This document shows positions 23,110 to 28,883 of a stretch of DNA of 64,000 bases, piece by piece. Position numbers and translations under genes: made by a program. The first letter of the stretch is position 1, and each line of letters begins with the position of its first letter. Source of the stretch: Dehalococcoidia bacterium (GTDB taxonomy: Bacteria; Chloroflexota; Dehalococcoidia; Bin125); NCBI GenBank assembly GCA_022825855.1, contig JAJDWB010000019.1:124001-188000 (forward strand), read 5' to 3'. A model generated the notes under the pieces. It ran no database searches, was not told the DNA's origin, and saw only the letters and a program-made list of their open reading frames with translations.

Positions 23110-23973
23110 TCAGTCGATGTCGATATCCAGCGCGATGTCCAGCGACGGCGCGGAGTGGGTCAGCGCGCCCAGCGAAATGAAGTCGACGCCCGCCCGGGCA
23201 ATCTCGGGAATCTGCTCAATCGTGATCCCGCCGCTGGCCTCCGTGCGGGCGTGGTACACACGCGCGACCTCGACTGCCGCCGGCAGATCGTCGACCGCGA
23301 AGTTGTCCAACAACAGCGAACTGGCTCCTGCGTCGAGCGCCTCTCGCGCTTCCTCCAGGTCGGTCACTTCGACCTCGACGCCGGTCGCCGGTCCGACGTG
23401 GGCAATCACCGCGCGGACAGCGTCGCCAAGCGTCCCTCCGGCCAACCTGACCGAGGCGATGTGATTGTCCTTGATCAACACGCCGGCGGCGAGCGAGTCA
23501 CGATGATTGAGCCCGCCGCCGCAGCGGACCGCGTAACGCTCGGCTGGTCGTAGTCCCGGCGTAGTCTTGCGCGTGTCGAGTATCTTCGTGCGCGTCCCGG
23601 CCGCCGCGACGGCTTGCGCGGTCAGGGTCGCCGTGCCGCTCAGCCGCTGCAGCCAGTTCAGCGCCGTGCGCTCGGCCCGCAGCAGCGGGTCGAGTTGTCC
23701 GCCGACGTCGGCAATCGGCTGCCCGGCCGAGACCGGATCGCCGTCGCTGACCTGGGGCAGAAAGCGCACGTCCGGATCCAGCCCCGCGAACGCCGCCAGC
23801 GCGAAATCAAGCCCGCAGATCACGCCCTCCGCCCGCGCCGTGAGTTGAGCGCTGCCTTGCCGCCAGTCGATCCACTTGCTCAGCGAGCCGGTCGTCAGAT
23901 CAAGGTCGGCCCGATCCTCGGCCAGCGATGCGTCGACCAGACGCTGAACCACGTTCAGGTCAAGCGCCGTCAT
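23110..23973 (-). CDS. nadC: Nicotinate-nucleotide pyrophosphorylase (carboxylating)
   Basis: Quinolinate phosphoribosyltransferase, converting quinolinate and PRPP to nicotinate mononucleotide, the third step of de novo NAD synthesis. The 287-residue protein has LNWLQRLSGTATLTA, the substrate loop LDTRKTTPGLR, and LIKDNHIASV; the C-terminal barrel has SGGITIEQI. The ATG at 23973 overlaps the nadB stop by 4 bases (ATGA), so the genes are coupled. Confidence 0.96.
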   Translation of the reverse strand: MTALDLNVVQRLVDASLAEDRADLDLTTGSLSKWIDWRQGSAQLTARAEGVICGLDFALAAFAGLDPDVRFLPQVSDGDPVSAGQPIADVGGQLDPLLRAERTALNWLQRLSGTATLTAQAVAAAGTRTKILDTRKTTPGLRPAERYAVRCGGGLNHRDSLAAGVLIKDNHIASVRLAGGTLGDAVRAVIAHVGPATGVEVEVTDLEEAREALDAGASSLLLDNFAVDDLPAAVEVARVYHARTEASGGITIEQIPEIARAGVDFISLGALTHSAPSLDIALDIDID

Positions 23974-25472
23974 TCTCGCGCCAGCTGCCAGAGACTGTGC
24001 CTCCGCCAGGCGGGGTCTTCCTCGGCAAAGTCCAGCCGCAAGTGCGACCCGCGTGACTCTGCGCGCTGCAGCGCCGCCTCGGTAATCAGCCGCGCCGTCA
24101 GCGTCGCCAGCGGCAACGACGGCTGGCTCGATGTCGTCGGCTCCGCCGACCACTCGCCAAATCGATCCAGCGCGCTCCGCAGACCAGCGCCGCTGCGTGT
24201 GATCCCGACCAGTTCGTTCATTGTCCCTTGCAGAGTCTCCATAGATGGCGCACTGCCCTCGAGTCGCCAGCGGAGGCTGCGCGCCTCGCCGTCCGGCGCT
24301 TGGGCCGGACCCGCCTCGCGGCGAATCGCTTCAATCGCCCGCGACGAGAAGACCGCAGCCTCCAGCAGCGAGTTTGACGCCACCCGGTTCGCCCCGTGCG
24401 CCCCGGTCGAAGCGCATTCGCCGGCCGCGTACAGTCCGGACACAGTCGTCCGTCCGTCAACGTCCGTGTAGACGCCGCCCATGTGATAGTGCGCCGCCGG
24501 CGCGACGGGAATCGGCCCCGCCGTAATGTCTTTTCCGCGATCCAGCGCGCCGCGGTAGACGCCGGGGAATCGCCCGCGCAGGTAGTCGGCATCCATGTGC
24601 GAGATGTCCAGCATCACGTGGTCGGCGCAGTCGCGACGCATGGTCTCGGTGATCGCGCGCGCAACGACCGACCGTGGCGCCAGTTCGGCGTCGGGATGGA
24701 CCCGAGTCATGAACCGATTCCCGGCCTCGTCGAGCAACACTGCGCCCTCGCCGCGCAGCGCCTCCGAAATCAGGAATGCGCCGTCTCCACCGACCAGCGC
24801 CGTCGGATGAAACTGGACGAACTCAGGGTCGCGCACCACGGCCCCGGCCCGGAAGGCGAGCGCGATCCCGTCGCCGGTCGCGCTCTCGGGATTGGTCGTC
24901 GTCCGATACAGCGCCCCCGCGCCGCCGGTCGCCAACAGCACAGCATCGGCGAGCAACGTCTCACGCCCATCTTCTTCGGTCGTCGCCCCAACGCAGCGTC
25001 CCGCCTCGACGATCAACTCGCCTACCGTCACATCGGTGCGGACGTCGACTCCCGACTCCGCCAGCCGATCGCCAAGGGCGGACTGAATGTGCACCCCGGT
25101 CTGGTCGCCGCCGGCGTGCAGGACGCGAGGAGTGCTGTGCGCACCCTCGGTCGCTAGCGCCAGCATCCCGCTTGGGTCGCGGTCGAACTCGACGCCGAGG
25201 CGCAGCAGCCGTTCGATCGCCTCGGGACCGTCGCTGGTGAGCGCGTGCACCGCGTCCGGATCGCACAGACCGGCGCCGGCGCGGATCGTGTCTTCGGCGT
25301 GCAGGCGAGGATCGTCCAGCGCCGCGATCGCTGCGGCGATCCCGCCCTGCGCCCGCTGGGTATTCGTCTGCTCCAGCGGACCCTTGCTCAGCAGCGTGAC
25401 ATCGGCAAACTCCGACGCCAGCAGGGCGGCATTGATGCCGGCCAGTCCGCTGCCGATGACGAGGATGCGCAT
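23970..25472 (-). CDS. nadB: L-aspartate oxidase
   Basis: FAD flavoprotein that oxidises aspartate to iminoaspartate, first step of NAD synthesis. The 500-residue protein begins with the FAD turn VIGSGLAGINAALLA; it has TQRAQGGIAAAI, the substrate region HPTAL, and HYHMGGVYTDVDGRTTVSGLYAAGECA. The family resembles fumarate reductase flavoproteins but lacks their partner subunits. It lies between nadA and nadC in one operon. Confidence 0.95.
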   Translation of the reverse strand: MRILVIGSGLAGINAALLASEFADVTLLSKGPLEQTNTQRAQGGIAAAIAALDDPRLHAEDTIRAGAGLCDPDAVHALTSDGPEAIERLLRLGVEFDRDPSGMLALATEGAHSTPRVLHAGGDQTGVHIQSALGDRLAESGVDVRTDVTVGELIVEAGRCVGATTEEDGRETLLADAVLLATGGAGALYRTTTNPESATGDGIALAFRAGAVVRDPEFVQFHPTALVGGDGAFLISEALRGEGAVLLDEAGNRFMTRVHPDAELAPRSVVARAITETMRRDCADHVMLDISHMDADYLRGRFPGVYRGALDRGKDITAGPIPVAPAAHYHMGGVYTDVDGRTTVSGLYAAGECASTGAHGANRVASNSLLEAAVFSSRAIEAIRREAGPAQAPDGEARSLRWRLEGSAPSMETLQGTMNELVGITRSGAGLRSALDRFGEWSAEPTTSSQPSLPLATLTARLITEAALQRAESRGSHLRLDFAEEDPAWRRHSLWQLARE

Positions 25473-25491: not shown

Positions 25492-26709
25492 CTAGGTGAT
25501 CGCCAGCATGCGGTCGAGCGCGACCCGGGCCCATTCCCGCGTGTCTTCGTCGACCGTGATCGGATTGACGACCCGGCCCTCGACCAGCGATTCGGTCACC
25601 CAGGCCAGGTAGGCCGGGTGGATTCGGTACATCGTCGCGCAGGGGCAGACGACCGGGTCTAGGCAGAAGGCGGTCTTGCCCTCCCCTGCGACCTCGTCGT
25701 TGAGCCGGTGCACGAGATTGATCTCGGTGCCCACCGCGTAGACGCCTGGCGGCCCGTTGCGCACGTAGTTGATGATGAACTCGGTCGAGCCGTCGGCGTC
25801 CGCCGCGTCGACCACCTGCTGTGTGCACTCGGGATGGACTACCACGCGCACGCCGGGATGCTCCTCGCGCGCCTGCTCGATCTGCTCGACGCGGAAGCGG
25901 ATGTGAACCGAGCAGTGTCCCTGCCAGAGCAGGATCTTGCTCTGCGCAATTCGATCCTCGGTCAGCCCGCCGTTGACCTTGCGCGGGCTCCAGACGGCAG
26001 TCTGGCTCTGCGGGTCGATGCCCAGCCGCTTGCCCGTGTTGCGTCCCAGGTGTTGATCGGGGAAGAACAGGACCTGATCGCCCTGCTCAAAGGCCCACTC
26101 CAGCACTGCCGTCGCGTTGGACGAGGTGCAGACCGCGCCGCCGTTCTTGCCGACGAACGCTTTCAGCGAGGCGGCGGAGTTCATGTAGGTAATCGGGATC
26201 ACGCGCTCGGTGTCGACCACCTCGCTCAGGTCGGCCCAGGCGTCGTAGACATCCTCCGGCTGAGCCATGTCGGCCATCGAGCAGCCTGCCGCTAGATTGG
26301 GCAGGATCACGGTTTGCTCAGGCGTAGTCAGGATGTCGGCGCTCTCGGCCATGAAATGGACGCCGCAGAAGACGATGTAGTCGGCCTCGGAGTTCTCCGC
26401 TGCCTGTTGCGCCAGCTTGAATGAGTCGCCGCGAAAGTCGGCGAACTCGATGATGTCATCGCGCTGGTAATGATGCCCGAGGATCAGCAGCCGTTCGCCC
26501 AGCTCCGCCCGCGCCGCCCGGATGCGCTCGCGCAACTCGTCGCCGGAGAGTCGCAGGTAATGATCGGGAATCTCGGGCTGCCAGTTCGGCAGATGCGGTT
26601 CCGATGCCAACGGCACGGTGGCGATGTCGGTCTCACAGGCCTCGTCGGGCAGGTTCGGCGGCAGAACCTCGGGCACGTAGCTGGTCTCGACGACGACGGC
26701 TTCGCTCAT
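25492..26709 (-). CDS. nadA: Quinolinate synthase
   Basis: [4Fe-4S] enzyme condensing iminoaspartate with dihydroxyacetone phosphate to quinolinate. Cluster cysteine candidates are in VFCGVHFMAESADIL, AVCTSSNA and PVVCPCATMY. LILGHHYQRDDIIEFADFRGDS is typical. The ATG at 26709 is preferred over the GTG/ATG near 26727 because the operator and promoter lie immediately upstream and the longer form would leave almost no leader. A ~60-residue N-terminal extension precedes the conserved core. First gene of nadABC, probably controlled by NrtR. Confidence 0.95.
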   Translation of the reverse strand: MSEAVVVETSYVPEVLPPNLPDEACETDIATVPLASEPHLPNWQPEIPDHYLRLSGDELRERIRAARAELGERLLILGHHYQRDDIIEFADFRGDSFKLAQQAAENSEADYIVFCGVHFMAESADILTTPEQTVILPNLAAGCSMADMAQPEDVYDAWADLSEVVDTERVIPITYMNSAASLKAFVGKNGGAVCTSSNATAVLEWAFEQGDQVLFFPDQHLGRNTGKRLGIDPQSQTAVWSPRKVNGGLTEDRIAQSKILLWQGHCSVHIRFRVEQIEQAREEHPGVRVVVHPECTQQVVDAADADGSTEFIINYVRNGPPGVYAVGTEINLVHRLNDEVAGEGKTAFCLDPVVCPCATMYRIHPAYLAWVTESLVEGRVVNPITVDEDTREWARVALDRMLAIT

Positions 26710-26728
26710 GACTATCAAACCCATCACT

Positions 26729-26747
26729 TAGTGTCAGTGTGACACTA
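26729..26747 (-). promoter_or_regulatory. Perfect inverted repeat, probable NrtR operator
   Basis: TAGTGTCA-3-TGACACTA is a perfect 8-bp inverted repeat with a 3-base spacer, placed between the nadA promoter and its start codon. The regulator gene next door encodes an NrtR-type protein, a family that binds palindromes near NAD-synthesis genes and is released by ADP-ribose or NAD derivatives. From its position just after the predicted transcription start, it should work as a repressor block. A half-site (AGTGTTA) overlaps the -10 region. Confidence 0.75.
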
Positions 26748-26760
26748 TCAATCCAGAACA

Positions 26761-26789
26761 GTGTTACAAATCCACATGGGAGTTGTCAA
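26761..26789 (-). promoter_or_regulatory. Predicted sigma70-type promoter of nadABC
   Basis: On the minus strand TTGACA (26789-26784) is followed by a 17-base spacer and TAACAC (26766-26761). The -35 hexamer and spacing are ideal. Transcription would start near 26754, just upstream of the inverted repeat and about 45 bases before the nadA ATG. Confidence 0.7.
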
Positions 26790-26851
26790 GAGCCGGTTGA
26801 TCGGATCGTGGATCAATCGACGCTCGACATAAGAGAAACGTCGCCCAGCGT

Positions 26852-27526
26852 TCAGCTTCGATTGGCGAAGCGATACAACCGCGCCGGACGATGCCGGCCC
26901 TCGCTGCGCATCTCCGACGTTGCCGCAATGAAGTCGGTCGCCAGCAGCCGCCGGCGGAAGTTGCGCTTGTCCAGCGTCCGACCCAGGATCGCCTCGTACA
27001 CCTCTTGCAGCTCCCGCATCGTGAACGTCGGCGGCAACAGCGAGTACGCGGCGTCTGTGTACTGCAGCTTGCTGATCAACCGGGTGCGCGCCACGTCGAT
27101 CACCTGCTCGTTGTTGAACGCGAGCGGCGGAATCTCGTCCAGGCTCCACCACTCAGGACGCCAGGCCGTGCGCTGGGCCAGCCGGACGCGAGCCGGATCG
27201 ACGAGCGCAAACCAGGCCACGCCGACGCTGCCTTCGTGCGGCGATGCGTCGAGATCTCCGAACGTGTAGAGCTGTTCCAAAAACACGTCCGTCACGCCCG
27301 TCTCCTCGGCCAGCTTGCGAACCGCGGCCTGCTCCAACGACTCCCCGTGTTGCAGAGCGCCGCCCGGGATCGCCCACCGCCCCTCCGCCGGAGCGGCCGA
27401 TCGCTCGATCAACAACACCTGCAACGCGCCGTCGACGACGGTGAAGATCACGACCAGCACCGCGACCGCAGGCCGGCGCGGCTGCCGCTGGCTGGCTTCT
27501 GCTGGTTGACTCGTCTGCGTCGTCAT
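26852..27526 (-). CDS. nrtR: NrtR-type Nudix-related transcriptional regulator of NAD metabolism
   Basis: 224 residues: an N-terminal Nudix domain followed by a winged-helix domain (LPPTFTMRELQEVYEAILG then KRNFRRRLL). The Nudix box spans residues 56-78, but Lys71 replaces the catalytic Glu of the REUxEE signature, fitting a ligand-sensing rather than hydrolysing domain, as known for NrtR. Adjacency to nadABC and the palindrome in front of nadA support the assignment. It starts 17 bases after the miaB stop and is probably co-transcribed with it. Confidence 0.88.
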   Translation of the reverse strand: MTTQTSQPAEASQRQPRRPAVAVLVVIFTVVDGALQVLLIERSAAPAEGRWAIPGGALQHGESLEQAAVRKLAEETGVTDVFLEQLYTFGDLDASPHEGSVGVAWFALVDPARVRLAQRTAWRPEWWSLDEIPPLAFNNEQVIDVARTRLISKLQYTDAAYSLLPPTFTMRELQEVYEAILGRTLDKRNFRRRLLATDFIAATSEMRSEGRHRPARLYRFANRS

Positions 27527-27542: not shown

Positions 27543-28883
27543 TCAGGCGGGCTGACCCTGCAAGCTCCACGGTCCGACCCGCGTGACCGTCACGCTCAGC
27601 ATGTCGCCGGGCGCATACGCGCCGGCCGCGGCGTCGAAGTGGACCAGCTTCATCGTTCTCGTGCGTCCGGTGTGGCGTTCCATACCGTCCTGATCGGATG
27701 GCTTGGTCGACTCCAGCAGCGCCTCCACATCCGTCAGCAGATAGCGATTGTTGATCTGAAACGAGATCTCCCGCTGCAGATCCTCAACTCGGTGCAACCG
27801 CTCCATCTTCAACTCGTGCGGAACGTCGTCCGGCTGGTTCCGCTCGGCGTAGGTTCCCGTACGCGGGCTGTAGGCCGCCACGTGCACCTTGTCGAAGCGC
27901 ATCTCCTCCAGCAGGTCGTATGTCTCCTGGAAGTCGGATTCGGATTCGCCCGGGAAACCCACGATCACGTCGGTCGAAATACTGACTTCCGGCCAGAGCG
28001 AACGCACCTTCTCCACCCGATCCCGGAACTGCGCCACGCTGTAGCCGCGGCGCATGTTGGTCAGCACATCGTCCGACCCCGCCTGAACCGGCAGCGAGAA
28101 CGCCTCGCAAACCTTGGACAACTCAGCCATGCCCTCGAGGATGCGGTCGGTCATGTCGGGCGGATAGCTGGTCAATTGCCGGATCCTGCGCAGATTCGGC
28201 AAGTCGTGGATCGCGCGCATCAGGTCCGAGAGATCCGCGTGCTCGGTCTCCGGATCGACCGGCGGCTGGTCCTTCCCGTAGGCCTCAACCGTCTGCCCCA
28301 ACAGCGTGACCTCACGCACACCCCGCAGCGTGTGCGCCTCAATCTCGCGCGCAACCTCGTCGATCGGCCGCGAGCGCTCACGGCCTCGGCGCAGCGGCAC
28401 GATGCAGTAGGTGCAGAACTTGTCGCAGCCCTCGATCACCGGGACGAAGGCCGTCGGCCGCGTCTCATCTGGGAAGATATCGGGCCAGAATTCGCCGCCG
28501 TCGTCCTCCGCCGAGGGGATACCCGGCAGCTCAAGCAGGTCAACCACCTGGTCGAAGCGCTGCGGTTGCGCCCAGGTATCGACGAAGCCGAAACGCCTCG
28601 TGATCGGATCGTCGCCCCGAGCCGTGTGCGGACCGACCATGCAGCCCATCACCGCGATCTTCAGGTCGGGATTGGCGCGCTTCAAGTGCTTGAGCGAACC
28701 GAGCTTGGCCTGCGCCTTGTCCTCCGCGTGCTGTCGCACCGCACAGGTGTTGAGCACGATCAGGTCGGCGTCTCGCGCCTGGTCGGTCGGCTCCATGCCC
28801 AGGCGCCGCAGACCCGCCGCCAACTTGGCCGAATCGGCCGTGTTGACCTGGCAACCGACGGTCCAGATGTGGTACTGCGGCAT
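27543..28883 (-). CDS. miaB: tRNA-2-methylthio-N6-dimethylallyladenosine synthase
   Basis: Radical-SAM methylthiotransferase acting on i6A37 of tRNAs that read UNN codons. The 446-residue protein has the UPF0004 domain with cysteines in TVGCQVNTADS, LNTCAVRQ and VMGCMVG, the radical-SAM triad CDKFCTYC, and a C-terminal TRAM domain (GRTRTMKLVHFD). The tRNA-Ser gene lies 29 bases upstream on the same strand. Confidence 0.95.
   Translation of the reverse strand: MPQYHIWTVGCQVNTADSAKLAAGLRRLGMEPTDQARDADLIVLNTCAVRQHAEDKAQAKLGSLKHLKRANPDLKIAVMGCMVGPHTARGDDPITRRFGFVDTWAQPQRFDQVVDLLELPGIPSAEDDGGEFWPDIFPDETRPTAFVPVIEGCDKFCTYCIVPLRRGRERSRPIDEVAREIEAHTLRGVREVTLLGQTVEAYGKDQPPVDPETEHADLSDLMRAIHDLPNLRRIRQLTSYPPDMTDRILEGMAELSKVCEAFSLPVQAGSDDVLTNMRRGYSVAQFRDRVEKVRSLWPEVSISTDVIVGFPGESESDFQETYDLLEEMRFDKVHVAAYSPRTGTYAERNQPDDVPHELKMERLHRVEDLQREISFQINNRYLLTDVEALLESTKPSDQDGMERHTGRTRTMKLVHFDAAAGAYAPGDMLSVTVTRVGPWSLQGQPA

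Follow-up and report, generated by a model that had tools for sequence, protein, structure and literature searches.

The nadABC locus

The window, by which is meant the whole 64,000-nucleotide stretch of DNA that was analysed, comes from an uncultured Chloroflexota bacterium and carries a cluster of genes for NAD synthesis together with a regulatory gene, all on the minus strand. In the direction of transcription the order is miaB, nrtR, a promoter region, nadA, nadB and nadC:

27543–28883, minus strand: miaB (TIGR01574 above cut-off), 16 bp upstream of nrtR and in the same direction
26852–27526, minus strand: nrtR, a Nudix domain plus an NrtR winged-helix domain (Pfam NrtR_WHD 6.9e-27, NUDIX 5.8e-18), with a predicted structure like BtAraR and SoNrtR over both domains
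25492–26712, minus strand: nadA, quinolinate synthase (Pfam NadA 1.6e-96; TIGR00550 above cut-off)
23970–25472, minus strand: nadB, L-aspartate oxidase (TIGR00551 above cut-off)
23110–23973, minus strand: nadC, quinolinate phosphoribosyltransferase (TIGR00078 above cut-off), overlapping the end of nadB

The start of nadC was assigned by us as the ATG that overlaps the nadB stop codon. nrtR is probably read from the miaB transcript. In some relatives (loci L158, L159, L160 and L154), nrtR and nadA are separated by hundreds of bases to several kilobases, and there the operator described below remains with nadA, not with nrtR.

Operator and promoter

The region between nrtR and nadA contains an operator and a promoter, both on the minus strand:

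26784–26789, minus strand: -35 element, TTGACA, present in 16 of 16 genomes of g1 and g2
26760–26768, minus strand: extended -10 element, TG-T-AACACT, its form kept in the same 16 genomes
26725–26751, minus strand: extended operator, 27 bp, defined by the alignment of nadA upstream regions
26729–26747, minus strand: operator core, the palindrome TAGTGTCA-CAC-TGACACTA in the minus-strand reading, from searches of the window and the genome and from its conservation upstream of nadA

On the other reading, the core at 26729–26747 is TAGTGTCA-GTG-TGACACTA, and 16 nt separate it from the ATG of nadA (26712). In the alignment of nadA upstream regions, the nadA-proximal half of the operator reaches TGACACTAAGT in g1, the genus of the window, while both arms reach about 12–13 bp in g3 and g5. 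The palindrome is the sole match in the window at up to three mismatches, where shuffled sequences lead one to expect 0.04. The original prediction proposed that it be searched for throughout the genome; in the 2,817,722 bases it has one exact match, that at 26729–26747, and one match with three mismatches, while a looser core, GTGTCNNNNNGACAC, occurs three times. The three-mismatch match (L002) is taken as a chance occurrence, the best 27-mer at that locus scoring 4.4 bits against 32–39 for nadA operators. The two other GTGTCNNNNNGACAC matches (L168 and L169) were likewise rejected as operators, with best 27-mers of -1.7 and -0.3 bits against the same range. Since the genome offers no further convincing site, its regulon probably consists of nadABC alone.

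On the minus strand, TTGACA (26789–26784) is followed by 17 nt, TAACAC (26766–26761), 13 nt and the operator (26747–26729). The promoter first proposed, TTGACA-17-TAACAC, is therefore present as read, but the conserved -10 element sits one base further on, as an extended -10 with an 18-nt spacer from the -35 element and 12 bp before the operator. The same arrangement recurs in all 16 genomes of g1 and g2, in the form TTGACA, 17–18 nt, an extended -10 (AACACT, AACAAT or close), 12–13 bp and the operator. The palindrome had been described as following the promoter at once; it does follow, but after this gap of 12–13 bp. The description of the promoter as strong does not hold: the -35 element matches the consensus at six of six positions, but the -10 at only three of six, and nothing in the region passed the threshold of a promoter scanner. 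Although conserved, the promoter does not qualify as strong on its match to the consensus. Its elements were not recognised in the nadA upstream regions of g3 and g5, and a terminator search found none. Assuming a transcription start some 7 nt past the -10 element, the recurring geometry of promoter and operator would place the operator at about +6 to +24.

Conservation of the operator

In a search of the 20 genomes of the family with the pattern WMGTGTCANNNTGACACKW, allowing up to one mismatch, the site is present in 19. G017, the remaining genome, is 79% complete and lacks both a match to this pattern and an identified nadA; wherever nadA is present in the family, in 19 genomes, the site lies upstream of it. 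By our count there are 26 distinct sites, 22 of them upstream of nadA, two upstream of nadE and two elsewhere, in the closely related genomes G005 and G007. As a control, the reversed pattern gave no match in any of the 20 genomes. A pattern search at the level of the order yielded these 20 genomes and no others.

nadE, encoding an NAD synthetase that carries NAD_synthase and CN_hydrolase domains, is a second predicted target in part of the family. When the nadE loci of the 20 genomes were scanned with a 27-bp matrix derived from the 19 nadA operators (g1 down-weighted), an operator appeared in all four genomes of g3, g4 and g5 (28.3 to 38.3 bits; loci L171, L172, L173 and L174, in G019, G018, G016 and G017, respectively) and in none of the 16 of g1 and g2, where the best score is 5.3 bits. 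To judge by these sites, the regulon has either lost or gained nadE within the family. Since a further family, f50, also has nadE sites, loss in g1 and g2 is the favoured direction. With nadE under the predicted operator in g3–g5 and f50, and not in the genus of the window or g2, the locus provides a small case of regulon change.

The site is also found outside the family. Of the 197 genomes of the class, 16 have the exact core, AGTGTCANNNTGACACT; eight of its nine sites outside the family lie directly before nadA or nadB, and the ninth (in G087) before riboflavin synthase. The two genomes of f50 have seven sites at up to one mismatch, two each at nadA, nadB and nadE and one at ribE. Of 78 distant loci that carry relatives of nrtR, 17 contain AGTGT-N7-ACACT, with 18 occurrences in all; four permuted patterns gave 0, 0, 3 and 0. 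The original prediction of an NrtR operator at nadABC is supported by the family profiles given below, by specificity in the whole genome and by this phylogenetic footprint.

A palindrome past the transcription start would lie in the leader of the transcript, where it can form a hairpin of 8 bp around a 3-nt loop, and a class of NAD riboswitch upstream of nadA is known in other bacteria. It might therefore act as RNA, in a 5' leader hairpin serving as riboswitch, attenuator or ribosome-site block, and not as a DNA operator. Several features make this very improbable. Rfam gives no match at E up to 5 in 26400–27000, and the leader folds no better than its shuffles (z -0.34). Three of the 19 nadA operators (G005, G007 and G008) lose the innermost pair with no compensating change, and in G006 that pair becomes a G-U wobble. 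In g1 and g2 the operator stands anywhere from 16 to 48 nt before the start codon, and the distance is longer in g3 and g5, where the starts are not fixed. Finally, three genomes (G016, G018 and G019) have tandem nadA sites 52–53 bp apart, a distance that suits the helical spacing of DNA.

Fold and DNA recognition of the regulator

The protein encoded by nrtR has an N-terminal NUDIX domain, with a Pfam score of 65.6 bits (cut-off 21.1), and a C-terminal NrtR_WHD domain, with 93.8 bits (cut-off 27). These two profiles on 26852–27526 bear out the proposed position of nrtR next to nadABC. The NCBIfam equivalog NF050029 ('ADPR responsive transcriptional repressor NtrR') matches at 163.6 bits, below its cut-off of 400. 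The predicted structure (mean pLDDT 85.9, pTM 0.82) superimposes on BtAraR of Bacteroides thetaiotaomicron with a Z-score of 25.4 (rmsd 2.5 over 208 residues), on SoNrtR of Shewanella oneidensis with 22.9 (rmsd 2.3 over 199 residues) and on NadQ structures with 18.7. All other fold matches are to Nudix hydrolases or to proteins that contain a Nudix-like domain. BtAraR, which matches the sequence at 142 bits, as against 118 for SoNrtR, is the closest solved relative by both sequence and fold.

BtAraR (5bs6, 5dd4, 5ddg and 5deq) shares the fold of the window protein, has a nearly identical recognition helix and recognises a GTGT half-site (PMC4666351). As described in the excerpted text of that paper, three residues of the recognition helix (Lys179, Asn181 and Lys184) and two of the wing (Lys204 and Arg205) form hydrogen bonds with DNA bases, Arg180 intercalates, and the helix and wing contacts define the GTGT motif. 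The window protein retains K179, R180, N181, R183 and R205, as K187, R188, N189, R191 and R213, while K184 is replaced by R192 and K204 by H212; the helix motif, DKRNF, is the same in both proteins. These residues connect the protein with the GTGT half-site by a line of evidence that does not depend on gene order. Since the DKRNF helix and the GTGT half-site tie the solved BtAraR structure to this operator, binding is directly testable.

The closeness of BtAraR in sequence, fold and recognition helix would also fit an AraR-like or other sugar regulator whose place beside nadABC is incidental. This is scarcely credible, since R34 alone of the three arabinose contacts is kept (as R42, with R86 replaced by A94 and H131 by N139), so that the arabinose pocket is not conserved, and since the operators, across several families, stand at nadA, nadB and nadE; the targets in the window are NAD genes. 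There is a negligible chance that the palindrome is the site of a different NAD regulator, NadQ or NadR for example. The NadQ motif, ttATRCTCannntGAGYATaa, is laid out in the same way (PMC5343134), and the NadQ structures do align with the predicted structure; but a Nudix domain is present in the adjacent protein, NadQ has an N-terminal domain unlike that of NrtR in the account of the same source, and the half-site TAGTGTCA differs from the NadQ motif.

The Nudix signature and the effector

In the Nudix signature, GX5EX7REUXEEXGU, the segment RELxEE reads RKLAEE in the window protein (residues 70–75). The Nudix box is thus mutated, as had been noticed at the outset, with Lys in place of one Glu, while the other three signature glutamates are kept. 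All 20 aligned members of the family have this RK; in an alignment of 50 sequences, RK is found in 12, all of them family members, and RELxEE in 32. Since Lys replaces the first Glu of REUXEE in all 20 members, hydrolase activity has probably been lost in the family of the window, while many of the wider relatives may still be active hydrolases, since 32 of the 50 keep RELxEE. An impaired Nudix signature is described for NrtR proteins that regulate NAD genes (PMC4666351, in part), and the window protein has this feature.

SoNrtR (3gz5, 3gz6 and 3gz8) has the same two-domain fold and the same change from RE to RK, but its recognition helix reads GKSF where that of the window protein reads DKRNF. 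Of its four ADP-ribose contacts that were checked, R41, N43, K76 and R98 (taken from PMC4666351, in part), only R41 is kept, as R42; N43 is replaced by A44, K76 by E75 and R98 by H97. The loss of contacts of the SoNrtR type speaks to the type of ligand and not to membership of the NrtR family. Based on the content of the regulon, the effector is most likely a pyridine nucleotide or ADP-ribose. NdnR of Corynebacterium, according to the excerpted PMC4666351, responds to NAD. The original wording, a switch that is 'NAD-responsive', is a reasonable inference, with residues that do not separate NAD from ADP-ribose.

Proposed mechanism of regulation

The preferred reading, to which we give a probability of about 95% on the sequence data, is that an NrtR-type repressor binds the palindrome just past the transcription start of nadABC and blocks the promoter until a nucleotide ligand releases it. 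The repressor, encoded just upstream and probably within the miaB transcript, would bind the palindrome as a dimer at about +6 to +24. There it would prevent RNA polymerase from starting at, or leaving, the promoter formed by TTGACA and the extended -10 element, so that the mode of control would be repression rather than activation. Turnover of NAD would raise the concentration of a nucleotide ligand, ADP-ribose in the best-studied relatives, in the Nudix-like domain. On ligand binding the winged helices would swing out of register, the repressor would leave the DNA, and nadA, nadB and nadC would be made. What the sequences themselves show is the set of elements, with their placement and conservation, the family to which the protein belongs, and a site specific to NAD genes; the remaining steps belong to the model.

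A system of this kind is known. In Mycobacterium smegmatis, as here, nrtR lies beside nadABC with a palindrome between them, and MsNrtR, to which the window system can be likened, is a repressor with a less conserved Nudix motif, for which no hydrolase activity was found (PMC6800001). The MsNrtR operator, GTTTTCGA-N7-TCGAAAAC, differs from that of the window (PMC6800001). MsNrtR also represses itself, according to the same source, whereas in the window self-repression is not expected, because nrtR follows miaB and the site is downstream of nrtR. A literature search found no paper on NrtR in Dehalococcoidia, the founding papers (Rodionov 2008; Huang 2009) lying outside its reach; RegPrecise 3.0, in the part available, includes a Chloroflexi collection. 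The locus supplies, for the NAD-synthesis genes of uncultured Dehalococcoidia, a well-defined predicted operator and its regulon.

Sites away from NAD genes

Three genomes have sites that are not at NAD genes and count against the preferred reading: G005, G007 and, with one site at ribE, G087. Such sites would fit a broader role, in which the NrtR branch of Dehalococcoidia reads a pyridine-nucleotide signal other than ADP-ribose, as only one of the four known ADP-ribose contacts survives although the Nudix signature is largely intact. The regulon of some lineages would then extend past NAD synthesis, to flavin synthesis through ribE (G087) and to a gene linked to ADP-ribose, ARPP-1 (G005). This broader reading is unlikely; if true, one switch would balance redox cofactors.

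The site in G087 (L207:2268–2294) is a near-perfect 27-bp operator of 40.9 bits just before the riboflavin synthase gene, with ribD upstream, and suggests that in this one genome NAD and flavin synthesis may be connected. In G128, the sole family relative of G087 in the sample, all three sites are at NAD genes. In G005 and G007, the extra operator-like sites form a pair, 33–34 bp apart, at a non-NAD locus, with scores of 30.6 and 14.7 bits in G005 (L153:1402–1462) and 31.6 and 17.5 bits in G007 (L152:3100–3159). The pair is flanked by a dienelactone hydrolase gene and by an ARPP-1 gene in G005 or a VWA-like gene in G007. ARPP has been proposed to act on ribose derived from ADP-ribose (PMC9503650, in part), and ARPP-1 was found in one of the 20 genomes of the family.
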